Below are positions 12,335 through 62,779 of a stretch of 64,000 bases of DNA, one piece after another. A program made the translations under genes and the position numbers. The DNA is from Paramacrobiotus metropolitanus (Eukaryota; Tardigrada; Eutardigrada; Parachela; Macrobiotidae). The notes below the pieces were generated by a model that had not been told where the DNA came from, did no database searches, and saw only the letters and a list, made by a program, of their open reading frames with translations. The DNA is taken from NCBI RefSeq assembly GCF_019649055.1, contig NW_026570266.1:806001-870000 (forward strand), in the 5' to 3' direction. Positions within the stretch are counted from its first letter, which is position 1. Every line of letters begins with the position of its first letter.

Positions 12335-13096
12335 CTAAACCAGCAGCGTTGCAGCAGCCCAGTGCAGCATACGGGCTAGCACTGTTGTGGCCCGTTGCTG
12401 CTCGTTGCGGCTTATAAGCCGTGTTGCGACTGTTGCGGCGTTGCAGCAGCCCAGTGCAGCATACGGGCTAGCACTGTTGCGGCCCGTTGCGGCGTTTGCA
12501 GATGCTTTGTCGGACGCTACGAAGAGTAGTACTGCCGTCTTGTTGCGGCGGATAATGTTGTCGGAACCGCAACGCGCTGCGCAACATGATCTTGGTACGG
12601 ATTGAGCCAGTCCTATAAGGGGCCCCAATGGTCCGTTTCGGCGAGCACGCTTCAAGGCGGCATTATTACCGTCCAAGACGCGGTAACTTTTGACTGCCTC
12701 ATGCGGCAGATAAACCTCGACATTCATGAGCGTAATATTATCATAACAATATAGCTCTGCGGAGCGTACGGGCTGCCATGATTCCGGATGATCGTCATCA
12801 ACTCTGACCAAGGTATACATCCCATTCTTGATTTCAGTCTCTTGGATGCTGCAACTTGGTCCGGCCCATACACCCACCCTGCGCAGGTTCTTCATGGGTA
12901 TCAGCCGCAGTTGTTGTTGCATACAGCCGATGCGCACCCAACAGTGATCCTTTTCCAGTCCACAGACATACCCGCGGTATACGGTCCTATTGTCGCCCTC
13001 ACAATCAGTGTAGTCCACAATATCGACAACAAACCGGCTGTAAATTCCCGTTAGCAGTGGCGTTGTGTATATTCGCGCAAACAAAAAGTCTTCCAT
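12335..13096 (-). pseudogene. F-box-family copy A, truncated to the N-terminal exon
   Basis: From ATG at 13096 the frame reads MEDFLFARIYTTPLLTGIYS, the family N-terminus, and follows the family through the YRGYVCG...CWVRIGC block and YRVLDGN to GPLGP. At about 12615 similarity stops: the expected PVTKESFRRVLIPF block is missing and the chain runs into low-complexity sequence made of a 92-bp duplication. No F-box, C-terminal or tail exon is found downstream. It is a 5' fragment and could make at most a short N-terminal-domain protein. Confidence 0.75.
12346..12494. repeat. 92-bp direct duplication in the tail of copy A
   Basis: GCGTTGCAGCAGCCCAGTGC starts at 12346 and again at 12438, and similarity runs over about 57 bp with one or two mismatches. 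It forms the unrelated 3' end of the truncated F-box-family copy. Confidence 0.8.
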
Positions 13097-14604
13097 GATG
13101 GATGCACCGGGCAATTGGGCTGAACCTGCAAGCTTCACAAATTCTTCACATAGTTTGACTCACAAGGGCAAAGGTACTCTTTTTGGGGAAACTATACTTT
13201 ACAAACAGTAGCAATACTGCCTGACCTATATGATTCGGTTTTTTGTACGTTTGCAGCTTTGCACTGTTGGATTAAATTTTAGCATAGAGAATTATGGACT
13301 GCAGTTCCTTCCGCTGTATATGGTACTGACCAGGATCAATACATATGCGAGATCAGACACGAATGGACAGAGTGGAAATAAGGGAGGCAATCAATCGATA
13401 CTTCATAGTCCATGTGTTGTTTAAGTGATTCACCGCGCAAGTGGCCATCCATTAAAGCGGCTAGCAACCAACTGAACCAAGCCATGCGGTAGTACATGTT
13501 GCCGCCCCCGTACGTACTCCGGGGCAACAGTACAGCAACCGGCAAGAGGTCCATAGTAATCTACTAATTACTGAGTTAAGTACATGCGATTGCAGGTTAA
13601 CCTTCATCAAATATTTTCAGGTTAACCACGAACCATGTTGCTACTACAACCCTTTACATTCCTAAACGGTTATACAGTTTAGGGCTCCTAACGTGTACTT
13701 AGGCAATATCGCACAAAATCAATCTCTGCGTAAACCAACGAGTGTCACTGTCACGATATGATTGTGATATAAAGAAAAACAGGACTTGTGATAGGTGAGA
13801 AATGGCAATAAACTGCTAATAATTTCTAGTGGCTTTTCTGCGTACGGTATAAGGGTGACTGTTCATATTTTGCAGTGTCTAGAACGATATTGTTGCTGAT
13901 ACAGACCTTGCTTTCCTTTAGATAACTTTTCCCAGTTGTCACTTCCTTGTTGTAATAACTACGAAAATTTTTTTTTTATTTTAACTCGACCAAACGAAAG
14001 ATCAACACGGTGTAAATGCTGTGGCATTGATTGTTAACCGTAGTCGTAGAATATGCAGATGGTTTTCAAACTGCATTTCGAAAGCCTGCTTAGCGGATCT
14101 CACGAGAATCGAATGCAAATGAGAGCAGCTCTTTCGTTTCTCATACATACAAAGGTCATTAGAATGTCGCAGGTTTCACAGCAAAAATCAAGCAGAAATC
14201 TCGCTACACGAAATAAAGAAGTAACGTGATACGCTGCATATATTTATTGTTAGTTACACAAACGTGAACATCAAAACATGAGCGACACAAGCACTGCAGT
14301 ACATATTCGTACAGTACGCTATTTAACTCTCCACTGTACTGTATCCTTTAGACCTTTACCAAAATTAATGCGGTTTCAAAAACTGTACGTTATTACTCGT
14401 AATGCAGATTGACTGGTCGAAGTTATGAAAACCATGAAAGTTACAAAAACTTACATTTGAGTCTGTAGCGTGTACTAGATAAAAACAGTACATACTAATC
14501 GTAAATACTCAATGGAAATACTCAATACTCATGCGTTTCTTGATGGACTCTGCCGCACTGACGCCATTAAAAAATCGGTTTTGGCTTTAACGTTTGGCTT
14601 TCTT
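13097..14604. other. Intergenic; upstream module of copy A
   Basis: About 13255-13460 matches the 5' flank of the other family members: TTAGCATAGAGAATTATGG, a purine-rich stretch, AATCGATAC, and GATTCACCGCGCAA. The rest to 14604 shows no gene. Confidence 0.6.
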
Positions 14605-17347
14605 TTAGTCCTGGTCGTTTGACTCTGCTTCGACCGCAGACGCTTCCGGGACGGGCACCAGCAAAGCAAGTGTTAGCATGAGCAAACACTTTGGAGACAA
14701 CTTTGTGGCAACATCCTTTTTGACGTCGTCGATGCTCCTGGGCTTTTCCTTTTTCCACCTACACAAAGCCATTGTCACGTATCGTTTTAATTTTCATCAT
14801 ATTACAATTTGCATCGTCCTTTAAGCTTAGCTTTGAACATTCCACCTCGTTGCCGCACTCACAGTTCATAACACAGCGGAAAAAATGGCCAGATACCAGA
14901 ATACTTGTCATGTAAATCATCCTCCGTCAATGAATTTAGCCAGGTCAACATGGCTCTGATCTTGCTATCTGGAAGTGTTGGGCACAACTCTTCCAGCGTA
15001 GATTGGAAGGCTACTGATAACGTGTTTGTTGATGATTCCGTACAGCTGTACTTAAAATAGGGAACGGCTAGAAGGAACGGCTCGTAACAGCAGGCCAGAC
15101 GACGACGGCGCGGGATGTTGCGGATTCGATTATCATAATCACTCGAATACGATGTCGCAGCGAAACAGATGGAAAGAGTGCTGTCAAAGCGGCAGTTCTT
15201 CAGTAATAGCTGGCGCAGCACGTTGGCATAAATAGGCACCGGCTGATACGTTCCTTGGAACGAAACGAAGTGATCTTCCGTATGCAGCATGGGGCACTGC
15301 TTAGTGAATACTACAAACTCGTGGAACGTCAGTACGGAATTGTCAGCCATGATCAACCAGTCGAGTTTCACGCCCATAAAATGCAGAACAAGCGCCACAT
15401 CGTGCAAACATCTCTCCCAGTTACCGATGAGGTAAACGATTTTGGTGTTTACTGTTACCGTGCTGTACAGTACGTAATGTATTGCAGCGCGATGTCCCAT
15501 AAATGAAGTGCGCTGCTGCAGTGAGAACTGTTTCAGAGCATCGAGGACATCTATGGAATGGAGTGGTAAGATCAGGCATTGCTGGATTAATTCGGAGCAT
15601 AATAAGTGACGGAACCATTTACACGTTCTGAAAACACATTAATCAAGATTGTCAGTGACGCTTAATGGTAACACGGTTATACAAGAGAACAAAAAATTAA
15701 ATTATTATGCCTTGTTTATAAGCCTGTTACAGGCTTACAGCAACATAATGCTCGCACAAAAAGACTTCTGATTCTTGTCCAACTTCCTGGGTTCCAAACA
15801 ACGTTTTTTCTCTGCCCAGATACAAAAGGGCTTTATTGGATATTAAAAAAGCTAGTGTTTACTCTCGTCTCGGTTCTAGGCGAACGGGACCAGCAGAATC
15901 ATTACATGCCAGGAAATCAACCAATTATCGTACCTGCGAATTTGATGCTGATCAAAGCTATCCATACAGGAAAAAATAGTCAGATGTAGCTCCACATACA
16001 GGTCACTAAGACGTAGCTCACTGGGGTCGTCCAGGCCTACAAAAGACGCAAATTAATGCAGAGCACTGGACAGCGTTTAAGTCACTTCTAAGTGCGGTAT
16101 TATACGTGCCAGTTGCTCAACAATGGTGGTTTAATTCCGACGTCATAATAATCATAATTTATTTTGCTACTTACGCAGTGTACACGCAAGCGATTTCTAT
16201 TGGATGTAACTGAAATTCAGTCGTGTAAAAATATCAGAGAAGCTGAAGCATACTGATGGAGACATTTAAGTAAGGCTATTTTGGGTTTTTTTTAACAAAA
16301 CGGTAGATTCCCCCTCCGAAGAACCCCTATTTCTTTGCCATATTATTAGGAAATTGTACAATCCTGCGGAAATGGAAGATATTATGAGCAGACACCATGC
16401 GAACCAAAACCAATTTGTTGTTTGTTTTCCAGATTTTGAAATGATCCTAAAACGCTTTAATTTGGAGTTCCGGAAAAGGCTGTGACGGCAATATAAAGGC
16501 TATTTTTTACTGCATTTTCCAGCCTTGACTTACGTTCCATGCCCACAATCACGCTCACAAGTTTGTCCAGAATTCTTTCTACAGTCTCCGTGGCTCTCCT
16601 GGTCAGCAATGTTGCAAACCGCTTAATGGCGTAGACGACGTTCTTAAATGTAACCCTATCGTCGGGAAATTTGCCGCGACCTTTCGCGATTAACAAGGCA
16701 ACACACCCGTCCACAACCCCGAGAAACATTATCTGTTTGTTTGTACCACACCTCCACATAAACTGACTACGAAAGTGTGGCATGTCCTTTATGTGATGCA
16801 GTAGATCAGCTATATTAGGAATATCCCTTGTGAATTCAGAAAAAGGAATTAGCACGCGACGAAAGGACTCCTTGGTCACGGGCAGTCCCAACGGTCCCGC
16901 TGAACGAACTCGCTTTAGGGCGGCATCATTGCCGTCCAACACGCGGTAAGTCTTGATCGTGTCATCGGGCAGCATAACCTCGACGTTCAAGAACGTAAAG
17001 GTCGGATAGTAAAGGAACTGAGCGGAATATGCGGGCTGCCATGATTCCGGTTGTTTGTTATCCAAACTGACCAGAATATCCAGTCCGTTTTTGATTTTTT
17101 GTTTCTCTTGGATGCAGTATCCTGGATGTTGACCTGATAAACCCACCCTGCGCAGCTTCTTCATGGGTATAAGCCGCAGCTGCTGCTGTCTGCAGCCGAT
17201 TCGCACCCAACATTGATCGTTCTCCACTCCGCACACGTATCCACGATAAACTAAATCATCGTCATCCACAATGTCGACAATAAACCGGTTATAAACACCC
17301 GTTAACAGTGGAGTTGTACATATTCGGGCAAACAAGAAATCCTCCAT
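14605..17347 (-). CDS. F-box-family protein, copy B, intact, 611 aa, four exons
   Basis: Exons (minus) are 17347-16534, 16036-15934, 15627-14863 and 14758-14605, with donors gtaagt, gtacga and gtgagt and phases consistent; the total is 1836 nt. The N-terminal exon (residues 1-271) has a small beta-rich block (YRGYVCGVENDQCWVRIGC, then LRLIPMKKLRRV) that could be an SH3/Tudor-like barrel (inference), then FRRVLIPFSEF and a helical end. Exon 2 and the start of exon 3 form an F-box-like helix set (about 273-320: LSDLYVELHLTIFS...FDQHQIRR|TCKWFRHLL), matching the F-box pattern LP...IFSYL...L..R.VCK.WR. Exon 3 (307-560) may be degenerate leucine-rich substrate-binding sequence. Exon 4 has a hydrophobic CLLMLTLALLVP and an acidic end. 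An SCF ubiquitin-ligase adaptor role is inferred from the F-box only. It is the sole open copy of six. Confidence 0.75.
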
Positions 17348-17741
17348 GATGGATACTGGATTATCGGGTAGCTAGGCCTGAACTACTTTACAAATCGTTT
17401 AAAAGGTTTTATTCAGTATAGCGATGCAAAGTTAAATTAAAGTAATTTTTGCTCTTACTAAGGTCTGGTAATACGGCTCGATCGATATTCTGTTAGCTTG
17501 CGCGTGCACTGTTGGATTTTACTCGTATTTGGCATAGAGAAATATAGGCTGCGATTCCTTTGGCTGTATAGTATTCGCTGGCATTGAACAAGATCTACGG
17601 GATCAAACAATAACACTGATGGACACCGAGAAAATATGGGAGGCTACGGGTTATAACCAATCGATACTAGCTGTACTAGTATGTGTCCTGCTGCTGGATG
17701 CTATCGACTGACCGCGCGATATGAGCATACGTGGTCAGTTA
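17348..17741. promoter_or_regulatory. Conserved 5' flank of the F-box family (copy B)
   Basis: About 17505-17715 holds the module shared by all copies: GTGCACTGTTGGATTT, TTGGCATAGAGAAATA, CAATCGATAC and ACTGACCGCGCGATA. Conservation of non-coding sequence between old copies suggests promoter or 5' UTR function, or simply the extent of the duplicated unit. No clear TATA box is seen. Confidence 0.45.
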
Positions 17742-18246: not shown

Positions 18247-18248
18247 TA

Positions 18249-19340: not shown

Positions 19341-21894
19341 TTACCGCGGTTCTTCGAAAACAAACGATTTCTCAATTGGAACCAGCAAGGCTAATGTTAG
19401 CATGAGTAAACACTTCGGAGGTAACCTGATAGCGACATCTTGCTTGACGTCACCGAGATCATTGGGCTTTTTCTTCTTCCACCTACAAATGAGTTTTTTA
19501 TCACCATGGTCAGGCTTGTTGTTAGCTTCACGCGCATCATAGCTGTTTTACTCACAGTTTATAACACATCGGTACAAATGGCCAGATAAATGCTTTCCAT
19601 TTTAAATCGTCTTCCGTCAGAGAATCCAGCCACGCTAGCATGGCTCTGATCTTGTTATCTGGAAGGGTACCGGTGGGGCATAACTGTTCTAGTGTTGCTT
19701 GAAAAGGCTCGGCCAACGTGGACGTCGTTGCTTTGGTGAAGTGGTGCTTAAAATAAGGAAACACAATACGGAATGGCTCCTGACGACAGGTCAGCTTTTC
19801 GTGCCGCGTCGCGAACCAAAGGCGATGCTTGTAGGGAGGATACAATATCGACGTGAAACATATTGAAAGCTTGCTATTAAAACAACAGTTCTTTAGAAGC
19901 AGGCGACGGGCAACGCTGGCATATTCAGGCGCCGCATGAACTATTCCTCGAAACGTAACGAAATCGTCATCCGTACGCAACATGGGCCACTGGTCAGGAA
20001 AATCCAAAAATTCTTTGAACACCAGTACAGAGTTGTTGACGATAACCAGCCAGATGATTTCCACACGCAGAAATTTCAGTAGCAGGACTAATACGTGCAA
20101 ACATTTCTCCCAGTTACCAATGAGATAAATAATTTTAGTGTTTTGTGTAACCGTGTTGCACAGAACGTGAGTCATTGTAGCGCTGTGTTCGCTGCCGTCC
20201 AAACGCGGTTGCTGCGAGAACAGTTTTAGAGTATCGAGAACATCCATAGAATGGCGTGGTAAAATCAGACACTGTTGGTTAGCTGCGGAGCATAACAAGT
20301 GTCGGAACCATTTACACGTCCTGAAAGTAAAAAGAAGCGGCAAATCAATTTACAAAACCGGCAAAAGTTGCTCTCCGAAAATCATACAGATACAGCAAAA
20401 TAATAACCGCATGTTATCAGTTAGCGTTGGGGACGTTGTGAGGAACCGTAGATCCTACGGGTAGTTGCTGACTTACTGTAGAAGTATACTTGATAGCCAA
20501 AAAACAACCACATAACAACAACGAAGACATATACAAGAAAGTTCAAATTAAAATCTTAATTGTTATGCTTCATGCATCAGTAAATGGCCCGAATTCCCGA
20601 CTAGCCAGACATGGTTAAACAAGAAATTAGTCAAATGTTATACCTGCGAATCTGATGTTGATGAAAAACATCCACATATGAAAATACAGTCAGATGCAAC
20701 TCCACATACAAGACCTAGTCATCCAGTCGTAATTCACTTGGTTGGTCCAATCCTAGAAACCACATGGCTAGTGGCTACACTGTATTACACTGTTAGCTCT
20801 GTCCATTGTGCCGTGCAAGGGAATTTGCTATTGTAAATTAGTTTTGTGATTTTGAATATTGTAAGACTGCGTCATTTGTTGGTTGTTGCGGACGGCGTAA
20901 AAATATTATGATTCACGCGCTTCATAAACAAAATTTTCTGCTTTTTAAAACTGATAATTCTAGTGTGAAGTTTTTCACCTGCACACATTAAATTATATTC
21001 TGTCTTGAAATGTACGTTTACTTGGAAGTATTTTACTTTGATGCAGAAAGCACTGTTTTCTGTCAGCGCTAACGCAAAGTAAAGTATAAACTCACCATCC
21101 ATGCCCATAATCACGTTTACAAGTTGGTCCACAATTCTGGCCACGGTTTTCGCAGTTCCTGTAGTTAGCGATGTTATGAAACGCTTAATGGCATTGACCG
21201 CGTAGTAGACAATTTGTTTTTCGGTAGTGCCGGAGGTTCCGCTGCCGCAGGTCCCGGCAGCTAATAAGGCGATACAGCCATCGATAACCCCGAGAAACAT
21301 CATCTCCTTGGCCGCACCACATCTCCAGAGGAATAAACTGCGAAAATGTGGCATGTCCTGTACGCGTTCCAGCACCTCCGCAATGTTGGGAATGTCGCGC
21401 GTGAATTTGGAGAGGGGAATCAGCAAGCGACGGAAGGACCGGGCGGTCACGGGAAACCCTAGCGGACCCGCCCGACGAATGCGCTTCGTGGGAGCGGTAT
21501 TACCGTCCAACACACGGTAACGTTTCAGCGTTTTATCTACCTCGACATTCACGGCCGTAAAGGTCGGGCTCCAAATGCCGGTACCAACCATCCACGCGGG
21601 TTGCCATGATTCTGGATGGTCCTCGTCAGTGCTGACAAGGACATCGATGGCTTCAACGACATGATCGCGGCCGATTTTTCCTGATAATTTCACCCTGCGC
21701 AGCTTCTTTCTGGGTACCAACCGCAGTTTCTGCTGCCTGCAGCCGATGCGCACCCAACATTTATCATTTTCTAGCCCGCAGACGTACCCATGGTACCGTG
21801 TACCATCGTCATCCACAAAGTCGACAACGAACCGACTGTAAACACCCGTTAACAGCGGAGTTGTGCATATTCGCGCAAACAGAAAGTTCTCCAT
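19341..21894 (-). pseudogene. F-box-family copy C, stop codon inside the F-box exon
   Basis: All four family exons are present: 21894-21096, 20752-20644, 20320-19556 and 19482-19341, with intact donors and acceptors and correct phases. Exon 2 is 109 nt instead of 103: a 6-nt insertion brings an in-frame TAG directly after RLDD, in the middle of the F-box. The other exons are open (ENFLFARICTTPLLTGVYSR at the start, CLLMLTLALLVPIEKS near the end). Translation would stop at about residue 278, leaving only the N-terminal domain. An unannotated alternative splice skipping exon 2 would shift the frame (109 nt), so I call it a pseudogene; an N-terminal-only protein remains possible. Confidence 0.75.
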
Positions 21895-25486: not shown

Positions 25487-28400
25487 CTAAGCTAGAGCTT
25501 GAGGGCGAGCTTTCGGGCGTAGGCATTTTCGGAACGGCACCAACAAGGCGAGTGTTTGTATGAGCAGATACTTCGGAGGCAACCTGATAGCAACATCTTT
25601 CTTGGCTTCATTCAAATATTCTGGCTTTTTCTTCTGCAACCTACACAATAATTTTATAACATGGTCAGTATTAGATTTTGAGCACATCATACATCCTTCG
25701 CACTCACAGTTCATAGCACAGCGGCACAAACGGCCAGGCATATGCTTTCCCTTTCAAGTCCTCCTCCTCCAGAAAATCCAGCCAGGTTAAGATGGCTCTA
25801 ATCTTGTAATCCGGAAGTGCAGGACAAAATTTTTCTAATTCTGATTGGAAGGATTCGGCCAAGGTGACTGCTGTTGATCTCTCAAAGCTGTACTGCCAGT
25901 GAGGAAGTACAACACAGAATGGCTCTTCACAGCAAGCCATGGGGTATTCCCAGCGCGGGGGGTAGAAAACTTGAAAGCGATGGCGAGGAGACTTAAAGGG
26001 TATTGACGCGAAACAAATTGAGAGATTGCTTTGAAAGCAGCAGTTCTTCAACAGTATGTGACGGGTCACGCTGCTGTAAGGCGCCGACTCAAACGTTTCT
26101 CGGAAGGTGGCAGAAGCGCCAACTAAATGCAACCTATTCCAAAGGCCAGGAAATTCTAGAAATTCGTGGAACATCAGCATGGAATTGTCAGCGATGGTCA
26201 ACCAGTCGAGTTTCACGCGGAAAAAGTGCAGAAAAATCACCAGATGATGCAGACATTTCTCCCAGTTACCAATGAGGTAAATGGTTTTGATGTTGGCTGT
26301 TACCGTGCTGCACAGCATCTGCATTACAGTAGCGGGGTGTTCGCTGAAGTCCGCAAACTGCTGCAGAGAAAACATTTTTAAAGTGTCCAGGACATCCATA
26401 GAGTTACGTGGTAGGATCAGACATTGTTGGATCGTTGCAGAACATAGTAAGTGAAGGAACCATTTGCATGTCCTAAGAGCAAAGGAATCTGGATTGAGTA
26501 CCACAATATCACTACGATAAAACTGTAGCAGAACATCAGCGCCTGACTGCAGCCTCTCAAACACGCCACCTATCTGTCAAATTATAGGCAAACTGCTTGT
26601 TACCCTCGTTACGTGTTACCCTCCAGTGGCGCCACATATATCACGCAGTGTAATGCACTGTCACATCGTTGTGACCTTTGTGGTCCGCATTAGAGATATG
26701 GCAGTTTTAGAGCCAACATGCCCTTGGTTTTTCTGATGACAGTATTATTGAGGTTGTTTTGTCCGCTTTCAGTATGGAGTTACGGAATAAACATATTGTT
26801 ACTACTACCTCAAGACATGAAATAGCCCTCATACTGACTTGTTATCTTAGCTCACAGCAACAAGTTGCAACCAACATCCGATCCCAGACAAGCGAGACTG
26901 GATTAAAAAACTCTGTAAAAATGAATTCACCAAATCGTACCTGCGAATCTGATGTTGATCAAAGACATTCAAATAGGAAAATACAGCCAGATGTAACTCC
27001 GCAAACAAGCCGCTAAGGCGTAATTCACTTGGATTGTGTAGGGCTGCAAAGAAATCATACATCATTGGAATGTACTGAAAAATGTGAAGACATTATTTTT
27101 ATATGCAATGAAAATTTCCTACAAAGTACACGTATGGTTACGAGTATTCTTGTATCCTTTGACGTTGCACTTTTTTTCTTGCTCAGTTGCAACGCTCCAT
27201 TTTGTTCCTGTGGAACTGTACAGGTACTCCATAGAATACCTGAGTTGGGACAAAGCTTTTTCCAGCATGCCACAGCAAGTATAGAATATGCGAGTTGGGA
27301 CATCGCTTTTTTTAAACCGCTAAAGCGACAGCTACACGGATTTGAGAAATCCAAGAAACAACAGGTTATCATGCTATGTGAAGCATGAAACAAGATACAG
27401 GAACTGTTTAACAATGGTACCCACGATTTCTATGTACGCATTCTTAAGCGATGTAATGAACTTTTCAAAATGCTTCAAAAACTCTGTCGACTTCTTTATC
27501 AAATACTATCTGGGGGTTATTTGGCCTGCCTTGGTATTACTTCTTCACCTTTGGTATCCTAATAAAACCATCGCAATGATCGCAATGATTAACTGCGCGA
27601 AAGACGGTCTGGATCTGCCCCAGCGTAGGAGCCTTTACCATGCTTGTGTGCAGCCACACTTCGACTACGGGTCGGATACGTGGTCACCGGCATCTTTGGC
27701 TTTGCGCGGCAAACTGGCAAAAGCACAGCGGAAAGCACTGCGGGCGATTTCTGATTACAAGGAGCGGGTAACCCCCGAGCTGTACCAGAAACTGCGCATC
27801 CTGCCGGTGTACGGCCGTTGGAAGCAGTCCGAGGCAGTATGGTTGTACAAGATCTACAACCACGAAGCGTACCATCCTCCACAGTACCTGGTCGACATGA
27901 TTGACTTCACGGATGTTACAGCGCGGTATAACCTCCGGAAGCCAAAAAGAATCGAAGCCAAAGCGAAGAAGAAGATCGGGGAAGGCACGTTGGCCAAGCG
28001 TTTAAGGGACATTTTCGAGCGCATACAAAACGTTAATATGCAGATACTCAGCGTTGATGGTGTTGGTTTTTTCAAATTTGCTCTCCGAATGGTGGATCTG
28101 TCGTAACGGGTTGTCTGCTCTTGATGTAATAATAATAATTATAAATATGTACACGAATTCCGTCGCTATCCCGGTCCTTCAACTTTACCGAAACAGCCAA
28201 AGGTGAATAAGGAAGATAGGTTTGTATTAAAACTAGTTTTCTGAAGTGGTTTTCTGATTTTACATAAAACGAAGCTTAAACGTTTGAAGTTTGAGATTTA
28301 GAACAGCACAGCCAAGCGCTTTACTACCATATACTCTGTACAAGAATATGCGTTACGGCCGTCTATAGTGCAACCTTCAACTAACCTTCCATGCCCGAAG

Positions 28401-29218: not shown

Positions 29219-31463
29219 GATGGACACCGGATCCGCTTTGCAATTCAGTCCGATTTTTAACAAAATCTTTTTGCTTGATCCCAATCAGGATATGGAAATA
29301 TCGTTGTTTCCGGAGGGATGTACATTGTCATTGCTTTTGCAGATGGTCCTAAATATCTGTTGGTGGCCGCCTGCGCTTTTGGACTGGAATTTGGCTCAGA
29401 GGAATATACTCCTTTTGCTGTGCTTTTACTCGTATTTGTGGTTAACGTGAGCCATGTGAGTAAAGTCAGTGGCATTGATAGACCGAAAGGACAAAACGTA
29501 TAGGACTGAGGTGTAGTGTTGCTGCAGAATGCAATCGATTTATCACGTATGATTGCATCGATTCAATTCGACTGCATGCCGTCGTTTGGACCATAAAATT
29601 CACAGTAGTGCACAGCATCTGTACACATATATTATATGTATATATAAAATGGGCTTATTTCACCAGTCTCAGTACTGTACTTGCTATGGTCATCCGGCTA
29701 GAGTGTGGCGCTGCGGCAGTACATGCGTTTAAATCAGACGCGGTACATTAGCACCATGATTGTTTAGCCACAACGTAAAACTCCAGTCGGTTAATAACAG
29801 CCAGTGAAATGTTGTTTCATTAAGCATTCAGTGTCAATTGAGCGTTACCCTTTGTGTACAAATTATGGTTTTGCAGGATGCCACTAGATAGCGATTTTTC
29901 AATAAGGGGACCGCTAGCAGTATAGTGTTTTTGGGAAAACGGGAATAGCTCAAAAACAGTGACCGGATGTGAGTTTTTGTAGTGTATACTGAATAGTGCA
30001 CGTAAACGTACGTACAGGTGCAGCGATGTATATTCTCGTGAATGTGATTATTGTCGGATGTCCATTGTGGCCTAGCAACAGGTAATGGTAGTACCGGCGT
30101 TGCTATGTTATGTCGATTTAGTTGCTTGTTTGCTGCTTTCCCGAGCGGACGTAATAAAAGATTATGCCGTGCGTCACATATATTACAGTTTTGCTTGACA
30201 TGTTTTGTTTTGTTTTTTGCTCGTATTGCTTAACATCGTCGAAAAAAAGCGCATCTGGGTCAGCTTACGCGCATTCCAGATGCCATTCAGTTTAAGCTTA
30301 CTTTTGAACTGCAGTTTTTTTACCACATTAATTTTAGTGTAGTTTTGAAGTTTGCGCAGTTTTGTACGCATAGTTTAAATGTATGGGATGCTTCCATAAT
30401 TGTATAAACAATAAATTGCAGCGACAATAGCCGCCAGCAGCATGGTTGCTGTTCGACGTTTTCTGTCAGTATAAGCTAAACGACACTCTGTTTGACCACT
30501 TTTGCACGATCAAAACACATTTTACGAAAATCCGAACTCACATGCAGCCTGTCTGACTTACACAATGTCTGCACTTGGCAGTGACATTTTCGAAGGTGCG
30601 GCAATGATTTTACAGAAAGTTAACTGTGAAATATTTCTGCACTCACTGCCATGAAATTGATGGCAGCCTACCAATATCTCATAACCACTTTAACAACCCG
30701 CCAATCACAACGGCTTGGCAGATGGCAAAGCCGTCTCGTGCGACCTTGAAACGCTATGATTGTGGAGTGATCTAATTATTTAAACATTATACAGTATCGC
30801 TACAGGAACGTGAAAATATGTGTCACCATTTTTGCAAGTGTACAACATGTGGTGTTATTGATATTACAGACAACTTTGAAGCACTGTAGCGACTCTGTAA
30901 AAGTGTTACAATAATATCGACATTGAACTGCTCTGCACTATCAGACGACTACCTAGTAGGCTAGTATCTATCTGTAGTATGGGCGCTGTAAATGTGTTTC
31001 GCGTTAACTGATTAATTTGTAGAATACGAGCAAGGGGACATTAAAACGCTACAGTTTCCGAGATGATAGAATTTATGACCTTTCTACCTGTTACTGCAGC
31101 AGACAACCGGGAATCCGGTGAGTTTACGTATTTCACTATAGGAATTTACTTTGTAACTTTAATTCCACACAAAAGTCTACGGATCTTACGTTGCCTTCAG
31201 CCAGTTACCAGTATATCTGTTTTTAAACCAGTAATAACATCAATTACCTGCACCTGCACATAAATTATCCATAATTCACGAAAAGCCCAGAAGCGGATTC
31301 GATTACAAATCGGCCCTACCCTAATATTTTGTTGAATTAACTCGATCGCCAACACTGTCTACAAAAACTGCTGCATAATTCCTTCAACTTCTTGTCGCAG
31401 CAGGGGAAGCCACATTTGTCTTAGCCGGCTGTACTGCACTAAAGTCTGCAATCTTAAGCAGCG
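29219..31463. other. Intergenic; 5' flank of copy D, no gene
   Basis: About 29375-29560 carries a diverged family upstream module (TTTGGCTCAGAGGAATATAC). At about 30719-30740 GCAAAGCCGTCTCGTGCGAC is the inverse of 4838-4857. Other short open frames have no support. Confidence 0.5.
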
Positions 31464-34400
31464 ATGCCGGACCTAAGTCCGACGATCAACAATGTCTCAC
31501 TGGCTCTCTATGGAGGCGCGACGTCGATGGTGGAATCGGGAAATTTCTTAGTGTCACCCATCAGCATTCTGTACGCTATGGTGTTGGTCTATCTTGGAGC
31601 ACGCGGTCCCACCCGGGATAATTTATATGATGCGCTGGATTTCAAGGAATTCTCCAAATCGGGAGCGGATGCGGACGTGGTCGGGGCGTTTGGGCAGTTG
31701 ATGAGCGACTTGAAAGTGAAGGCGGCATTAGCAACTCCCGTGAACACCAAAGGAAAAAATAAGACATCTGCCAGCTCGAAGGCTCCGAAACTAAAGGATG
31801 ATGCCTTCCAGTTAGCACTGGCCAATGGGGTAATCAATGCATTGCGTACAGTAAACTTTCAATTACTCTCACTCTCATAATACTTCCAGTTTATTTGTAG
31901 TGACAGCAGTAAACTTCAGTTTTCAAAATGTACGAGAAATATGTAATTATAAATATCCTATTTTTTTATTATAAAACTAGTGGACCCCGCGCAAATTGCG
32001 CGGAGTAAATTGGCATTTAGCAGCCGCGCAAATTAATTATTTACTTGACCACTCCGTTCACCACTTTTCATTGCCTTTCACTCGGTACTGCATCTGTACA
32101 CAAACTTTTGGTACTACTTTTCCCTACGTTCATTACTTTTAATGGCTCGTCCAAGTCGAATATTTCCCTTCGTTTGATATATGCATTTGCTTTCACCACA
32201 CTGGCTTGTTTTTAAAATTTTTTTGTACTATACCTTTACTTTCATTTTTTTAAATAAAATTATACAAACAATAGTAAGTACATGTGTCGTAAATATTCGG
32301 AAAATGACTTTAATTAGTTGCAGCAAAGTACCAATTATGAATTATCTTGTCTCCGTAGTGAATTTTTTGACATCTGGAATAATTTCTAAAATTCAGAGGA
32401 ATTTTTAATTTGTGGAATTTAAAGAACATTAATTTCTGGAATTTGCGTATGTTTACAATAACAATACCACGCAATCTTCTCAAATACTGCAAAATTATGG
32501 TGCCGAAAATACACCAAAGTGTCATCCAACGTCGGACCATGAGAGACGGTAAAAGGCGAAAAGGTAGTTCACCGAGTAAGTAGTACGCAGTGTAGCACGG
32601 CGTGAACGTAGTGCGAATGGTAGTGAGCCAAACGAAAGGTAGTAAAAGGTGATAAACGGAGGCCGTCACCTTTACTGTTTAGCTTTTGAATTTTTCACGT
32701 TTCTTTTGGGTTGAAATGCGCAATTCCGGGAACACAAAGCAGATCTAATTTTACGACTTTTGCTGATTTTGGGACTCTTGTGTAAATTTCGATTGTGTAA
32801 ATTTGGGCTTTGGCTATTACTGTACAACGGAAATTACGAACCCCTACGCAGAATGTCTAGGTTGTTGTTCCGCGAGCTCCGCTGGTGTTCCATGCCTGTG
32901 AAGCTATCAATTGGACAACTTAAAGTTTGAAATCCCGAACGCGGTCTATCTCGCACATTTCCAGTCTTTCAAAAACTGAGCATAACAAAACAAAATTTTT
33001 TTCGGTAGTTCCAGTTTCCGGTTCCAGTTTCTGCTTGTAACAATTTCCACAGATTTGCTACATTGTGAAACTATTGCAGTAATTGCACAAACCTCATTAA
33101 CGGGAATAGCTGTGTGTGAAATTTTCAACAGTACGTTTTTCATGACCTGCAGAAATGACAACCGCACATACTTTAAACGTATGCCTATTAATTTGTGAAT
33201 GATTTTACCTTCAAAAATTTAAACGTTATTTAAATTGAAATTAAACGAACCCGATTTGCTGCAAGTTGCAACCGCACTTTTCCTCGCCGTAGTAAACTCA
33301 CCATCAGCAGAGCCCCACAACCTACGCAAGGTGGCGTCTACTTACTTGACTGCGCAGCGTTAACTGGTTTTTGACGTCCCGTAGACTTTGCATGTTAGAG
33401 TTTTGAATTTTTTCTCAAAACGTGTTTTGGTTTTCTGAAATCTGATTGTTTTGTACAAAATTACAAATCTACACATTCAGGGCTATCGAATGGTACCTTG
33501 AGATCTAAGTTTGGTTGAGCATATCTATGACTTAGACCCTGACAGACACAAATTTTGTGCACCTTCTTAATCTTTTATTATAAAGGATATTTTTATTATA
33601 AATTATTTTTGCATAGTAGTGTTTAGTGTATTTAGTTGCATCGTTGTGTTAAAATTTTTTTAAAGGTGATTATTGCTTATAAAATACTGCTAAAGCAATG
33701 ATGATTTAACAGATGCGCTCTATTTTTGGTTTGGCTGCAAATATGTTTTCAATTCTACAAATATGTTTTCAATTCTATCTACGCATCAACCGCTTTAAAC
33801 GAGCCGGCATAGAAAGAAATGTAATTAAGCACGAACATCTTTGCTGTATTAAACCGTCATATAACAGCGCGAATCAGCTCTGGTGTGAAATAGATGTAGG
33901 GTTGAAAACGTTTTAATTTCTGACTACAAAAAGGGCGATGTTTTAGGCTTTCGTCTAAATACTTGCGGTTACGCAACTATTGCATAAGAATATTATGTAC
34001 AGTATGGTAGTGTAAATACAGTACTCTGTATATTAACCGGAATACTGTGCAGCTGTGTGCACTCGCTGTTTTGCAGGTGTTTCTGCGGAAGGGTATGAAC
34101 TTTGATCAGAATTACCTGTCCATGGCCAGCCAGCAACTCAAATCCTCCATTCAGACCGAGGATTACGCGGCTAACCCGGCAGCAGCGGCCAAAGACATTA
34201 ACAAATGGGTCGCCGAGCGGACCGGCGGGGAAATTAAAGATCTGATCCCCGAAGGCGCCTTGGACGTGGACACCCTGGCTGTTTTAGCCAATGCCGTGTA
34301 TTTCAACGCTCAGTGGAATACCGTGTTTCCTCCCGAAGAAGTCGACACGGAAGCTGAGTTTCAGTTACTGGACGGATCTACGACGAAGATGTCCATGATG

Positions 34401-35290
34401 TATGTTGTGGATAAATTTAGATACGTGGAGGATGACCAGCTGGATTTGAAGTACCTGGAAATTCCCTATGCGAACCACGAAGCATCTATGCTGGTGTTCT
34501 TGCCCAATAAGGACACCGGGCTGCGTAGTCTGGAAAAAGCCATAACCGCGGAGGTCTTGCAACGTCTGCAGAGTAAAGCTGAAAAAGGAGCGCTGATGTT
34601 AGTCCAACTTCGGTTGCCGAAATTCAAGCTGGAGAGCAGTTTTGATCTGCTTCAACTGCTGAAAATCATCGGTGTTACAAACATATTTACAGCAGAATGT
34701 GACCTTTCGGGATTGGTGCCCCATAGCCCCGCACATGTTGATGGGGCTTTCCATAAAACCTTCATTGGTAAGGGAATTCTGACCTTAACAAAAAACGGCT
34801 GCTTTATTAAGTAGTATTTCTAGCTGTTAAGTTTATTTAGAATTTGTTCGATGTTAGTAAACAATTCCACGATAAATAGTCAGCAATAATCCCAACTTAA
34901 AACATAATACCCTTTCCGCCGTAACTATAGAATAGTCAATAGTTTATCGAAACAAAACTTGCGAAACCTGTGAATGAACACGGAACCCTTGATTATGCTT
35001 TAAACGATAAGTGGCGTATATACAGTAGAACACTGTCTGTTGCAGTGCGATGTAATAACTGCTTGATACGTGATTTTTCCACATTTTTTTCAGAGGTGGA
35101 TGAGAAAGGAACAAAAGCGGCCGCAGCCAGCGCAGTGATAACCGCCGGTCGCAGCTCTGGGGGGCACACTCCTGATTACCGGAGGTTTTTTGCCGATCAC
35201 CCGTTTCTGTACGCCATTCGTCACAGCCGTACCAAGGCTATCTTGTTTATTGGACGCTTTGAATCTCCAGCCGACTCACCGCAGCCATAA
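31464..35290 (+). CDS. Serpin, 424 aa, three exons, predicted P1 Arg
   Basis: Exons 31464-31850, 34077-34767 and 35094-35290 (donors ACA|gtaaac and ATTG|gtaagg; acceptors ttgcag and tttcag) sum to 1275 nt. Family features in order are [20 protein letters not shown] (helix A/B region), [28 protein letters not shown], a [19 protein letters not shown] strand, [12 protein letters not shown], then the reactive loop [15 protein letters not shown] and the C-terminal [20 protein letters not shown]. The hinge (Gly365 at P15, Thr at P14, four Ala at P12-P9) is of the inhibitory type, and counting from it puts Arg379-Ser380 at P1-P1' (AGRS). That predicts inhibition of trypsin-like serine proteases. No signal peptide is present at this ATG, so it is either intracellular (clade B-like) or lacks an upstream exon. 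A Lys/Ser-rich insert lies at about residues 90-112. Intron 1 is 2.2 kb. Confidence 0.9.
31851..34076. other. Serpin intron 1: repeat-derived sequence
   Basis: No exon is seen. Near the start is CCGCGCAAATTGCGCGG (about 31987-32003), a 17-bp perfect palindrome with GGACC before it, of the kind found at ends of short transposable elements. Imperfect inverted similarity between about 32045-32110 and 32575-32655 (TTCACCACTTTTCATTGCCTTTC-like) suggests a degraded ~600-bp inverted-repeat element. Confidence 0.45.
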
Positions 35291-36200: not shown

Positions 36201-36329
36201 TTACATGCACAGGCATAGGTAATTCTTCACGGAGAGGGAGCGCATTTCCACTGTTATTGATTTTGCAGCTTGACCTACACAGTTGTAGGGACCGAGCGCA
36301 GATGCACTGTGATAGGATTGCATTTGGTC

Positions 36330-38319: not shown

Positions 38320-40229
38320 TTAATTTTCAAACTTGCTTCCAAACTTAAGCGAGACAATCTGATTGTAATCTATAGAGTTCAAGCCATAGTCTGAGTATGC
38401 GTCGGGATCGTCTTTCGCAGATGTTTCTGAATCGGAATCTTCTGAACCCGATTTGGTGTCTTCTTCCGCAGACGGTTCCGCAACGGGCACCAACAGAGCG
38501 AGCGTCAGCATGAGCAAACAATTTGGAGGCAACCTTGTAGCGACATCCTTCTTCACGTCATCGAAGTGCTTTGGCGTTTTCCTCTTCCACCTACCCAATA
38601 AAATTGTCATATCGTCGTATTTGCCATTACCACTGCACGTTTTTTGAGTTCTATTTTTGAGCATTCCACCGATTTGCCGCACTTACAGTTCATAACACAG
38701 CGGAAAAAATCGCCATACACCATAGTATTTGTCTCTCAGATTGTCCTCCGTTAGAGAATCCAGCCAGGTTAGCAGAGCTCTGATCTTGTTGTCTGGTAGT
38801 GTGGGACAAAATTATTCTAGAGCTGACTGGAAGGATTCTGCCAAATTGGGAGTTGCTGATTCCGCAAAGTTGTGCCTGAAATAAGGCAGTAAAATGCGGA
38901 ATGGGTCCTGGCAACAGGCCAGAGGGGGATAGCGCAAGCGAGGGACGGTGTAGATTCGATTGTCGTCATGACATTTATACGATACCGACGTTAAGCAGAT
39001 TGAACGCTTGCTACCAAAGCAGCAGTTCCTCAACAACAAGTGGCGTCAGATACTGGCATAATCAACCACCGTCGGATGGTTTGGAACGTAACAACGATGG
39101 ATGGTTTGGAACGTAACAAAATCGTCATCGGTACGCAGCATGGGCAGATAAGGGTCAGGGAATTCAAGAAACTCGTGGAACTTTAGCACGCCATTGTCGG
39201 CGATGATCAGCCAGTCGAGTTTTATGCGAAAAAAATGCAGGAAAATCGCCAGATGGTGCAGAGATTTTTCCCAGTTGCCAATGAGATAGATGATCTTGGT
39301 GTTGGCTGTTACTGTGCTGCACAGTATGTACATAATGGTGGCGCGGTGTTCGCAGAAGTAGGCCCACTGCTGCAGTGAAAAAAGCTTTAAAGCGTCAAGG
39401 ACATCTATAGCCTGACGTGGTAACATCAGGCACTGTTGGATTATTTCCGAGGATAATATGTGACGGAACCATTTACACGTCCTGTAATCAAAGAAAACTT
39501 GATTGTGAAAGAAGCGAATGGAAAATACGTGAATACAGCGGAAAAAATTAATGTGAGTGACTAACACACCTCGTTCTGGGAGGGTTTTCGATATGGTTTT
39601 CGACACGCAGATTTTACTGTTAATCTTCAACAGGCACGGCTATCGATAAATCGAATCTTGCATTCGTTTAGTAAGCCTTCCGAACCGGCTAGTTTCTCTA
39701 ATTTTTCTTTTGCACCCCCGTGAGGCTATGGCCAAAGTCACCAAGCCACTCTGATTCCGTATTACCTATTACTTTGTGCATGATAATGAGTCGCCATAGC
39801 TAAATTATCGCTGAAAATTATAGTAAATACAGCCAAGATGTCTGCAGTACAGCAGTTGTACTAATGACGCGAAATTGTCCTTATAGCGACCGCTGTCCAC
39901 ATCCTGCTGGCAAAATGTTTCTACTTTTTTTGTTGATTCCGATTCAATAACCATGGCAAGCCATGCCCGATCCGAACAAGTACAGTATTATCAAACTCAT
40001 TAATTATAACATTAATCATCCAAATATCGTACCTGCGAATCAACTGCTGATCAAAGACATCCAGATAGGAAAATACAACGCGGTGTAACTCCATATGCAG
40101 ATCACGAAAGCGTGATCTGCTAGGATAGTCCAGGTCTACAAACTCTATGTGTCATTAATGCAAGATCTTTTTAGACACTTAGAACTACTAAACTAGTATT
40201 GCAAATCACGGGCAACTACCAAGCAAAGG

Positions 40230-40640: not shown

Positions 40641-40730
40641 CGATACAGAGTACTGATCAGATTTACCCAGGAGACTGCTCCGTTAAATCGCGCGTGCCGA
40701 TGAAAGCATAAGGCAAAAAGTTAAGGCTAA

Positions 40731-43700
40731 GGCTATTTTGCCGCATTTTTTCCCAGTGCGGCAAAATAGCCTTTTGCTATTTTGCCGCACACTGCGTTAA
40801 AATAGTCTTTAGCTATTTTGCCGCAGTATGGTAGGCAAAATAGCCATTTGCTATTTTACCGCACACTGCGTTTAAACAGCCTTTTGCTATTTTGCCGCAC
40901 TGTGGTCGTATCTAACTTGCCACAGTAAAGAGTACGGCACGGCCATCTAGACACATTTTGTGTTGGATTTGAGCTAACGCCTGAACCCTCCAGCGGGCGG
41001 TATCCGAAGGAGTGCGAGTATCACGAAAAAATTCAATTAAAAAAGTGAATTTTTTGTGAGCTTGTTATGACCATATGTCTGTGGCAGTGACTGTATCGCT
41101 TGCCAACGCCAATGGACATTGACAGTCGACAGCCTAAAAACGTTTATTTTTGTGATAACTTGCGAAGTCTAATTACGTAAAGCGATACTTCGTTAAATAG
41201 CATAAAAAAATATTTAAAATGAAAGTGTAGAAGTGTTCAAGAAAATGACCGCGGTTTGCAAAAAATAAAAACTTCCGATTCCCGTTTCCATGTGTTGTGA
41301 CCACGACCACAGATAGAATACTGAAAATAGACGATGCCAGCGATGTTTCTTCCCAAGGCTTTCATTATGCTCTCATATGAGACTGCACGAGGCAATATTT
41401 TTTGGTTTAAGATTACATTACTGGCCATTTCTACTGCCCGCATTGTCCGCGCTTACATTTTTCTTGGGTGTGTCCGCAGGTGCCACTGTGAAAAAAAGGT
41501 GCCGATGCTCCAACTGCAGTGGTCATTAGTGCCAAATCAAGTATTAGAGGTCGCTAACACTTTTTGGAACGCTTTAGCGGCCGAAAGTAACTAATAAGGC
41601 TGCCGTTAAGGTCAACATAATTAATGTGCACACTTCTGTGTGCAGTTACGTACTGTACACATAATCTGCAACCGCCCGTGGCTGATCAAAACTCAAAACA
41701 CACATTCTTCAAAGCTGCGCAGCGCTCTTCCCTAGCGTGCCCAAGCGATGCATTGATATGTAAAAACGCGGCAAAGTGCTATTTCACAGTGTTATTGCAA
41801 GGGCGGTAAAATTGCAATCAGGACGGTTTCCCTAAACGTTCTGTTTTTTTTCGGAAGCAAACGAATTTTGAAACCATTTTGTTTTCCGCCGCAGCGCCCA
41901 GGTTGTTCATTTGCAGTGGGACAGTAGGCAAACAGAGGTTCACGACCGTGAGAAAGAAAGGATTTATTGTGGATTGCAATAATGCACCAGAAACCAAAAC
42001 ACAAAGCCTGTGGAAAGCTCGGTGTGAGCGCGATGATGAAAGACCTGTTAATGATATTGTTAGCGCATGCTGCTGATCGGCACATCGAGCCAAACAGAGA
42101 AAAAGGTCTAATGCGGCATTGGGCAGATCCCACACGAGCGGGACAAACGCTGGCTGAAATGTAAAGCTTTAGGAGTGGCTAGGCGGAGTCAGAAACAGTG
42201 ATAAAGCGCTTGTAACTGACCAAAACGTCTGGACAACCAAGACGCCCGGCGAAAGTTTTGGTCCTTAGACCGACTAAACCGTCCGGCGGCCAAAAAAAGC
42301 GTCCGCCGGAAATTTCGCCCACCCAAATTTTTTGCGTTCTCGATGCGACTCTGACAGCTATTTCAGCCCGAGCACTTTGGTCGGAACAGTGTTCAGCCCG
42401 GACACTTTGGTCTGAGTACTATGTCTGCCCTGACACTTTGGTCCGAGAATATGTCAGCCCGGACACATTGGTCGGAGTATTTTTACAGCCTGGACACTTT
42501 AGTCTGAGAATTGTTACTGCCCGAACACTTTAGTCGGAGTAATATGTCAGCCCGGGCACTTTGGTCGGAGCATTATTCCGGCCTGAGCACTTTGGTCGGA
42601 GTAATATTCCAGCCCGGACACTTTTGTCTGAGCACTATTCCAGCCCAGACAATTTGATCGGAATACTATGATATCTGAGGCAGCCTAATAGTTTGCCTGC
42701 GCAGCCACGTTTATATCGATGCGCTGCGCTTTGTATACCGCTGCGTCATCGAAGGTTATAAAACCAAATCTTGGATTTTTAAATTTTTAAGCCTTGCGTG
42801 CGGCGCGTCGTTTTATGGGAAAAACTGCGCTATCCATTAACACATTCCTGTGAGGTGTACCAGGTTTTTGTCGGGCTTCTTTTGTGGAAGAGATCATTTT
42901 CGAAGGCCGCCGTTGAATGCCCGCAGTCAACCGCATTTGCCTCGCCATAATTAAACCAATTATCGCAATAGAATGCAGTACTGAATAAAAAAATGGTAAA
43001 TCAGCTGAGGACGAAATTATATTGCAACGTCTCTGAAGAAATCGTACGGCAACTGAAGGTGCCTCTTCGCCAGATTTCTAAACCTAAAAAGTACCAGATA
43101 GTACCATGATCAAGCTGTCTGGGCGCATTGACAAAAGTGTCCGAGCTGAACTATTGCCCCGACCAAAGTGTCCGGGCTGTAATGGTACTCCGACCAGTGT
43201 CCGGGCTGAAATAGTGCTCGGACTAAAGGGCCTTGGTTGGAATAGTGCTCTGAACAAAATGTCAGAGCTGGAACAATGCTTCGACCCTAGTGTCCGGGCT
43301 AAAATAGTGCTCCGACAAAGGGTCCAGGTCTAAATCGTGTTCCGATTAAAGTGTTCGGGCTGGATTAATGCTTCGACCAAAGTGTCTGGGCCCACATAGT
43401 TCTCCGACCAAAGTGTCCGGGTTACAAAAGCTGTCAGGAGCTTCTGGTCGCATCGAGAACGCAAAAAAATTTGGGTGGGCAAAATTCACGGCGGGCGTCT
43501 TTTTGGCCCCAGGACGGTTTGGTCGGTTTAACTACCAAAACGTCCGCCGGACGTCTTGCTCGTACGGACGTTTTAGTCGGTTATAGGCATGCGAGTGCAT
43601 GCGTACGGGAGTGAGTGCCATTGTATACCTCATTGCACCGTGCACCAGTAGCGGGACTGTCGCTGGCTGCCGTCTCGTATGCACTGCCATAGCAACAGGC

Positions 43701-45067
43701 CCAACATGCCTCTGGGCGGAAGTTCGAGCTCGTGCGAAAGACATCGGCCTCATGCCATCGGTTCTCGGGCTACCCTACGGCACCGGTTCAGTTCACCGAG
43801 GGTGGGGTAAGAAACTGGCGCGAAACTTTCTTCCGTCCAAATTACTTCGGGTAAGGTATAAATCTCCGTAGCCTGGTGAGAAAACGGGCTTGAAACTCAC
43901 TTCCGACCGGGGATCTTCCGGTCAAATTTGACCGGAACCTTCGTATCCAGGTAATCCAAGTTTGTGCTTGCGTCCAGCCGAGGTTCATCGGCTAAGGTGA
44001 GTAGAGAGGCACTGTCGCATCCGCGAATGCCGTGAGGCATCCTTTTTGGGTAAGCAATTGGACCTATAGAGTTACTTGATCAGTAGATCTTCCGGTAAAA
44101 TCCAGTAATCCGTGGTTTTGTAATCCAGCCCGAACTGTTATTTCGCGTCCAGTCGTCTATTGGGCAACCAGGACCGGGCAACTAGGACCGGATTTCTCGG
44201 CCGTGAGCTGCTTGCCTCTCATGGGTCTGGAAGTGAAGAATGGGACGGTCAACCAGACACCATACTTCCACTGCAAGAGGACGCGTACCGGCAAACCCAC
44301 ATGGGACCAACCGGATAGTTGTGCGGTACACTGATGCGGCACTGAGTCTGAGCTTCCCTCGCGGGAGTTCGGATTCCCGCCCATAGGCATATCAGGCGTA
44401 CGAGCCTGCGCGTGGTGCTCCGCCCATACTTGGGGTACTTGCACTCACTCACATGCCGTATTCGCCTTTCTCTTATACGCACGGGTGCTGCTGCACTGCA
44501 CTCTTCGCTGAAGCGGATATCCCGCGTGCGCACATTGGGCTGTACTTGCTCTCTCGTCCCTCTCTCGCAATACCACTCAGCGTTCATACGCTCGCGTTGG
44601 ATCGAGTCCAGTATGCGCATCACACACAGCTGATACATCTGGCCGCGATATGCCGCCAGCATTCTTTCACGCCTAGACAGACGCTCAAGAACTGACTTGC
44701 GTGCGTGTTCTATATTTAGCCCAGACTGGCATTTTTGTTCTTCCCGCATATCACGCGGTATTTGTTCCTTTTATTTGTCAATAAAGCACTATCGTGAGTC
44801 TTCGGCACTTGTCCGTTACACACAAAAAAAATTTCTTCCTTTAGTTATTCCTTCCTCTAGCCCAACCACATCGTCAATTTTCCTCTCTATTAACAGGAAT
44901 CTGCGGCAAAATAGTAAAAGGTTATTTCGCCGGTCATACTGCGGCAAAATAGCTAAAGGCTATTGTGACGCAGTGTGCGGCAAAATAGTGAATGGCTATT
45001 TTGCCGGCCATAGTGCGGCAAAATAGCTAAAGGCTATTTTACCGCAAACACTGCGGCAAAATAGCCA
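40731..45067. mobile_element. Outer foldback-type element with tandem-repeat inverted ends
   Basis: Both ends are arrays of a 36-38-bp unit: GGCTATTTTGCCGCA...TGCGGCAAAATAGC, left about 40731-40905, right about 44899-45067 in inverse orientation. Long inverted ends built of short tandem repeats are typical of Foldback elements. The 9-mer AAAAGTTAA occurs just outside both arms (40716-40724 and 45073-45081), the target-duplication length of FB and Mutator-like elements, although six bases at each end outside the clear inverted repeat do not match. The interior contains open frames (41334-41594 plus; 44249-44749 minus) without a recognisable transposase. A second foldback is nested inside. Confidence 0.65.
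42213..43583. mobile_element. Inner foldback-type element (1.37 kb) with ~30-bp minisatellite arms
   Basis: The left end TAACTGACCAAAACGTCT and the inverted right end TAACCGACTAAAACGTCC align, and the match continues through CAAGACGCCCGGCG and ACCGACTAAACCGTCC. Each ~490-bp arm then holds about ten copies of a 30-31-bp unit around GCCCGGACACTTTGGTCGGA, inverted in the other arm. A central segment of about 430 bp (42680-43110) is unique and has no gene. A long hairpin would form when single-stranded. Confidence 0.75.
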
Positions 45068-46132
45068 CTTCGAAAAGTTAAATGCGAATAAATATCTGGA
45101 ACTAACCTAGCAAATATAGTTGTTCTTTTCATATTTACTGATTATTTGAAACCAGTTCTATTAATTGCATTATTTGCATAGATATTTCGAATTTGAAAGT
45201 GAATTTCATGAGACGGTTTTCGTAAATTCGAGTTTCGGATCGTTAGATCAATTAATTTTACGACAAAAGAACAAAAATATGCGCTGCTGCAAGCAATCTG
45301 AAAGGCACATTTACCTTCCATTCCCACAGCCACGCTTATAAGCTTGTCCAAAATTCTTCCCACAGTCTTCATGGTTGTCCTGGGCAGCGATATAACGAGC
45401 CGCTTAATGGCATGTACCACGTACTTGACGGTAACCCTATCATCGGGCAATTTGCGACGACCTTTTGCGACTATAACAGCAACACACTCATCTTCAACCC
45501 CGAGAAACATTATCTGTTTCATCGCACCGCATCTCCACAGGAACAGACTGCGAAAGTGTGGCATGTCCTTTATCCGCTCGAGCACATCAGCGATATCGGG
45601 AATATCACTAGTGAACTCGCGAAAGGGGATCAGCACGCGACGAAAGCAATCCTTGGTAACGGGCGGTCCAAGTGGTCCCGCCCGGCGAATACGCTTCAAT
45701 GCGGAATTACTGCCGTCTAACACACGGTAACGTTTGATCGTGTCATCCGACAGCAAAACTTCGACATCCAAGAACGTAAATTCCGGATAGCTGTGGACAT
45801 GCGCGGAACATGCGGGCTGCCAAGATTCCGGATAATCCTCATCAAACACTGACCAAAACATCGATTCCATTATCGATTTCAGTGGTTTTGATGTGATAAC
45901 ATTTTCCCGATAAGCCCACTCTACGCAACTTTTTCATAGGTACAAGACGCAGTTGCTGCTGCATGCAACCGATGCGCACCCAACAGTGGTCTTTTTCCAC
46001 TCCACAGACATACCCACGGTTTACAGTTCTACTGCCGCCCACAGTGTCGTCCTCAACGTCCACAACGAATCGGCTGTAAACATTCGTCAACAGGAGAGTT
46101 GTATATATTCGCGCAAACAAGAAGTTCTCCAT

Positions 46133-62516: not shown

Positions 62517-62779
62517 TACCAAAAAAGTGGAATCGGCCAGTCGGTCCGCCGGTAAAATCTTATAATCCAATTGTTAAACGGTGTGCTACAGCATCTCATC
62601 CAGGGAAAATAACGAAGTATCGACTTTTATGTCATAGATTGTGGTTGTAGTGGTTGATCGAGAAGAAAAGAAGAAGATTACTCCAAGGCATACAAATTTC
62701 AACCATGGCAAAGGTGTATATCGGTACGCAATATGTACTGAGACAATTGCATAGAACTGGGTACAAGCTTGTCCGGTAA

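Follow-up and report, generated by a model that had tools for sequence, protein, structure and literature searches.

The 64,000-nt window analysed here, from contig NW_026570266.1 of the eutardigrade Paramacrobiotus metropolitanus (GCF_019649055.1), contains an array of six gene units within positions 12335-46132, all on one strand, the minus strand; the shared strand had been described previously. Consistent with a eutardigrade, the genome carries CAHS genes, which are known from eutardigrades (20 matches to a CAHS query, the best with 65% identity and E 3e-69); COX1 and a tardigrade telomere motif had no match in the assembly. The array is probably a mostly decayed part of one four-exon branch of a superfamily whose proteins join an FMRP-derived amino-terminal head to an F-box and a C-terminal domain, and which would have arisen by fusion followed by duplication and loss. 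F-box proteins link substrates to Skp1-Cul1 ubiquitin ligases, and the best reading of the sequences is a lineage-specific superfamily of putative substrate receptors of such Skp1-Cul1-F-box (SCF) ligases that carry this head. At the sequence level, the homology of the head, the presence of the F-box, the co-divergence of the two parts, a conserved splice plan and purifying selection are well supported; beyond these, we infer that the genes are expressed and that their products bind Skp1, recruit substrates and function within a ligase.

The intact gene of the array (U2, 17347-14605, minus strand) encodes a 611-amino acid (aa) product in four exons separated by GT..AG introns of phases 1, 2 and 2, exactly as first proposed. 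Exon 1 (16534-17347) encodes the FMRP/FXR-like head, in which two Tudor/Agenet-like domains precede a degenerate KH0-like part (E 9.5e-13 with an FMRP-seeded profile), exon 2 (15934-16036) the first part of the F-box, exon 3 (14863-15627) the end of the F-box and a C-terminal domain that the superfamily shares, and exon 4 (14605-14758) a conserved, shared tail containing LLMLTLALLVP. Gene models were built with our own splice-aware protein-to-DNA aligner, in which all three phases were tried and frameshifts were allowed; they were steered by the U2 protein, which served as the query, and they confirm that the F-box is divided between exons 2 and 3.

The N-terminal block had been regarded as a novel domain without known relatives. 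This view did not hold, as the block is, on profile-profile comparison, a diverged copy of the FMRP/FXR amino-terminal module comprising the tandem Tudor/Agenet domains and a KH0-like start. The link was tested because the block resembled the FMRP N-terminus by eye. Tudor_FRX1, the Pfam family for the FMRP Tudor domain, matched the genome (169.8 Mb, 533 contigs) at 27 places at E values up to 10, four of which were above the cut-off. One of these four is the host FMR1 gene (contig C5:3433812-3433952), which matches human FMRP at 1e-36. A weak match (E 0.33) lies in exon 1 of L031, which belongs to the window family (contig C242), and others point to F-box genes from different branches (L026, L027, L029 and L033), with L026 scoring above the cut-off (28.0 vs 25.9 bits). 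The N-terminal domains of the window family matched these four intermediates with Prob 98.5 and E 3.6e-15 over 225 columns, and the intermediates in turn matched FMRP/FXR with Prob 97.3 and E 2.7e-11. Direct comparison of the window family with FMRP/FXR yielded Prob 78.9 and E 1.6e-5 for an alignment spanning both Tudor domains at 14% identity, while five decoys in the same comparison reached E values of 0.34-0.63. Furthermore, a profile of 11 sampled superfamily heads matched both FMRP (Prob 98.0, E 1.9e-13) and the window family (Prob 97.1, E 7.5e-11), and all 12 window-family heads matched a combined FMRP-containing profile at E 1.1e-5 or better, compared with 0.67 or worse for reversed copies. 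A sampled head also retrieves the host FMR1 in a plain protein search (E 1.1e-7). The host FMR1 (L021) encodes its N-terminal domains in a single open frame of approximately 600 codons without an intervening intron, like the head exon of the F-box genes.

Alternatively, the head might be a Tudor/Agenet pair of other origin, with a generic Royal-family fold that resembles FMRP through convergence or in fold only, in which case descent from FMR1 would be wrong. This would agree with the low identity of the direct alignment and of one sampled head, L055, to the host FMR1 (26%), with the restriction of Pfam KH_9 matches in the genome to FMR1, and with weak Pfam Agenet matches in two of six heads. 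However, the Tudor_FRX1 cut-off is passed in L026 and at three places besides FMR1, and L055 aligns to positions 5-189 of the FMRP profile, through both Tudor domains and into KH0, with an E value of 4.3e-18. An extension into KH0 is also seen with the superfamily profile. We thus consider another origin of the head unlikely.

Searched against Pfam at E values up to 10, the 611-aa U2 product matched three families, all of them F-box families. The F-box match itself covers residues 281-317 and falls below the cut-off (16 bits vs 20.5, E 0.012), and four of six other intact members exceed the cut-off for F-box or F-box-like. The F-box is split by a phase-2 intron at an Arg codon that precedes T-C, and L026, which belongs to a different branch, has an intron of identical place and phase. 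A sequence search of the Protein Data Bank (PDB) with the U2 product returned nothing useful (best E 0.034). Downstream of the F-box, the window family and the sampled F-box loci have a C-terminal domain in common (Prob 93.8, E 1.7e-7 after removal of the F-box columns, compared with E 0.26 for the whole in reverse). No FTH, FBA or similar C-terminal domain was detected by Pfam in the whole product or in six F-box-plus-C-terminal parts, which matched F-box families only, and an assignment to a nematode-type F-box family was rejected because neither FTH nor FBA was matched.

The association of head and F-box was assessed across the genome, where the best 150 of 1080 first-look candidates from an F-box search were scored. 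A systematic sample of 17 loci, every eighth of ranks 1-129 with ranks 137 and 145 left out and hence drawn from the strongest F-box matches, was analysed with a profile seeded from three FMRP/FXR sequences and iterated over sense-strand open reading frames (ORFs) at E 0.001. The iteration converged on 14 of the 17 loci as having an upstream head, and reversed ORFs gave no matches. Among the other three, L041 resembles an ordinary F-box leucine-rich-repeat gene on inspection by eye, and L042 and L054 have no head within the stretch fetched. The pairwise distances of the head and of the F-box/C-terminal part are strongly correlated over 11 loci (Mantel r 0.897, p 0.0001); the two parts diverge in step and therefore travel together.

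It is quite unlikely that the head and the F-box come from separate neighbouring genes which lie close by chance and form no fused protein. The two parts do occupy separate exons, and across the genome-wide lists the gap between them has a median of 1115 bases. However, the phase-1 donor of exon 1 meets a matching exon 2 acceptor in 19 of 26 modelled regions (the six window units and 20 genome loci), and the remainder are fragments, clipped regions or one odd model. The arrangement is also specific for strand and side: 40 of the 150 F-box matches have a head on their own strand no more than 5 kb upstream, whereas upstream heads on the opposite strand accompany five matches, and downstream heads accompany 12 on the same and one on the opposite strand. 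The common divergence of the two parts is likewise at odds with chance proximity.

Two sampled heads used as protein queries, with the best 150 of 664 and the best 150 of 1056 candidates scored, provided a list of 149 matches from one query (FMR1 removed) and 150 of 158 from the other, in which same-strand matches less than 400 bases apart were merged. FMRP-like heads were thereby located at no fewer than 276 distinct loci on 74 contigs, FMR1 left out; given the scope of the search and the inclusion of broken copies, this number does not equal a count of working genes. Among the matches listed, 17 FMRP-like heads lie within about 115 kb of contig C77 (540638-655122), and contigs C137, C92, C52 and C19 are likewise rich in them.

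Within the window branch, the U2 product matched its own genome 99 times on 13 contigs at E values up to 10. In 19 of the 26 modelled regions, all three introns are present, with phases 1, 2 and 2 and positions that correspond to query residues 271-272, 306 and 561, and three of these regions (L017-L019) contain one additional modelled intron each; L008 retains the first and third introns only, and the other six non-conforming regions are fragments or clipped by the region limits. Six of the 20 genome regions and one of the six window units are intact to query residue 590 or beyond, and the intact members keep the splice plan at pairwise identities down to about 40% (40-45%). L005, the closest relative of U2 among the regions fetched, is 93.4, 86.4, 94.8 and 95.5% identical to it in exons 1-4 and 77.1, 84.9 and 93.3% in introns 1-3. 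Of 14 pairs, the 11 with dS below 1 show a ratio of nonsynonymous to synonymous substitution rates (dN/dS) of 0.21-0.49, some of the sequences being broken copies; of the remaining pairs, one has a value of 0.17 at a saturated dS of 2.9 and two have no value. Chance ORFs were rejected as an explanation on the basis of the shared splice plan and the contrast between exon and intron conservation. The window branch is, judged by these patterns, a protein-coding family that is losing copies. The proposal of an F-box family evolving by birth and death is thus supported by one intact and several broken copies in the window and by six intact relatives among the 20 genome regions, but its local scope is not: the superfamily of genes with an FMRP-like head and an F-box is genome-wide, and the array belongs to one of its branches, a divergent one with four exons. 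That this superfamily is merely mobile-element cargo, most copies being dead and without cellular function, is very unlikely, since the Helitron-like ORFs adjoining the array at 6503-10932, the five broken units out of six in the window and the scatter of heads over so many contigs are outweighed by the low dN/dS values, by exons that are mostly better conserved than introns and by a splice plan retained among intact members as diverged as those above.

In the simplest history suggested by the sequences, a single fusion was followed by expansion. Most likely, a copy of the host FMR1 supplied the head and became linked to an F-box gene, after which the fused gene would have multiplied through duplication and loss; here we infer a single origin, and descent from FMR1 rather than from another FXR-like gene. 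In the proteins, the F-box would dock on Skp1 within the SCF ubiquitin ligase, and the head, the C-terminal domain or both would bind the substrate. By analogy with FMRP, the substrates could be ribonucleoprotein components, because residues 1-200 of FMRP bind proteins with methylated RGG/RG motifs. In a more far-reaching scenario, which we consider possible but doubtful, a eutardigrade put a copy of its own fragile X reader head on an F-box and thereby obtained several hundred SCF receptors that destroy FMRP partners or other, perhaps foreign, ribonucleoproteins, while branches such as that of the window lost the methyl pocket and were retargeted. To our knowledge, such an FMRP-derived degradation repertoire with fast turnover has no counterpart in other animals.

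The ligand pocket of the head differs between the branches. According to PMC5430443, the RGG/RG proteins bound by FMRP residues 1-200 include FUS and LSM14A, their binding is weakened by the pocket mutations F32L and Y96L, and FXR1 is bound by the same residues with or without these mutations. The residue corresponding to F32 is F in all 11 sampled full heads and is replaced by I, V, L or N in all 12 heads of the window branch. Y96 is kept in none of the 23 heads (11 sampled and 12 window-branch); the host FMR1 also lacks it and has I at that position. Given this pattern at F32, recognition of a modified ligand by the first Tudor domain could persist in the main superfamily, whereas the window branch probably binds something else, and methyl reading was accordingly downgraded for the latter.

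Several observations weigh against a superfamily of SCF receptors with an FMRP-derived head. In addition to the pocket substitutions, the head is poorly recognized by Pfam: exon 1 of U2 matched no family, nine N-domains of the window family yielded no head domain and only four single-member matches, none better than E 0.048, and of six heads from other branches one passed a head cut-off, two had weak Agenet matches (E 0.013 and 0.014) and three had none. Used by itself, the profile of the window family failed to retrieve the FMR1 locus at E values up to 1 (L034), and since KH_9 finds FMR1 alone, the KH0 part of the head is derived from alignment only. Four decoy comparisons with the sampled-head profiles gave E values of 0.092-0.47, the lowest belonging to a decoy that was not reversed. 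Among antisense ORFs, the superfamily profile had one match (L051, antisense 2905-3753, E 1.2e-34), which is perhaps a neighbouring superfamily gene on the other strand. Finally, the genome contains Skp1 at four loci only, and five of the six window units are broken.

FMRP/FXR is a single- or few-copy RNA regulator in most animals. Like FMRP, FXR1 and FXR2 (PDB 4ova, 4qvz and 3kuf), the superfamily proteins have a pair of Tudor/Agenet domains arranged in the same order, and the segment behind them aligns to the start of KH0. In contrast to FMRP/FXR, the window product has an F-box and a different C-terminal domain in place of a Pfam KH domain, the window genes are multicopy and their branch has lost the pocket residue F32. 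Neither KH1 nor KH2 was found in the U2 product by Pfam at E values up to 10, and no RGG region was recognized in its sequence. Because the window product lacks KH1 and KH2 matches, the superfamily proteins are, by domain content, not members of the FXR family, yet they bear its N-terminal module.

Expansions of F-box genes, as in nematodes and plants, and the capture of new domains by F-box genes are known phenomena. The Caenorhabditis F-box expansions, as presented in PMC8665587, resemble the tardigrade superfamily in the lineage-specific growth and loss of F-box genes, but they lack the FMRP-type head, and the C-terminal part of the tardigrade proteins has no FTH/FBA-type Pfam match. Caenorhabditis F-box genes with a captured Tc1/Mariner helix-turn-helix likewise gained a foreign domain and then became multicopy (PMC12062965); the captured part is of transposase origin there and apparently of host FMR1 origin in the tardigrade. 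Among the titles and abstract openings of the open-access literature searched, no description of an FMRP-type head on an F-box was found, and the term F-box does not occur in the available text of the tardigrade comparative-genomics paper PMC5531438 or of PMC11191345. If the proposed architecture is correct, the FMRP module gains a second role as a substrate selector for protein destruction, a disease-relevant fold becomes available in hundreds of natural variants, and tardigrade genomics gains a large gene repertoire of a kind not found described in the literature searched.

The four-exon plan with phases 1, 2 and 2, previously attributed to all six units of the array, was recovered by splice-aware alignment in four of them, including U2, which is the only one of the four that is open as assembled. 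U3 (21894-19341; exons 21894-21096, 20752-20644, 20320-19556 and 19482-19341) contains an in-frame TAG at 20717 in exon 2, which encodes part of the F-box, and U4 (29218-25487; exons 29218-28386, 27043-26941, 26472-25708 and 25640-25487) a frameshift in exon 1 at about 28573. U5 (46132-38320; exons 46132-45315, 40135-40033, 39481-38687 and 38590-38320) has a frameshift at about 45844, stops at 39048 and 38814 in exon 3 and a first intron of 5.2 kb. The other two units are mere pieces: one (36195-35603) retains exon 4 together with the end of exon 3, with a frameshift at about 36033, and U1 (13096-12617) extends no further than residue 157 of exon 1, beyond which the sequence is unrelated.

Copies of array units are also present on small contigs (L005 and L006 on C468, L007 on C369, and L002 and L003 on C471) and may represent alternative haplotypes or segmental duplications. 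L005 and L006 are 87-91% identical to U2 and U3 in conserved order, and L007 is 92% identical to U1 over 666 bases. Because L007 contains nine frameshifts in exon 1 alone, its base quality may be poor, and some of the frameshifts in the array may likewise be assembly errors.

The Helitron-like ORFs next to the array (6503-10932, plus strand) encode DUF6570 and Helitron_like_N domains (6503-9469) and a PIF1 helicase (9330-10439) in overlapping frames, and are therefore perhaps frameshifted. Within the array, a serpin gene is located on the opposite strand (31458-34814, plus strand), with Pfam Serpin matches in 31458-31880 and 34011-34814. A further ORF (27324-28106, plus strand) that overlaps the first intron of U4 resembles by eye the end of a retroelement reverse transcriptase and has no Pfam match at E 0.01. 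Outside the array, the window also encodes a rhodopsin-type seven-helix receptor (Pfam 7tm_1) in a single open frame at 61434-62573 on the minus strand.

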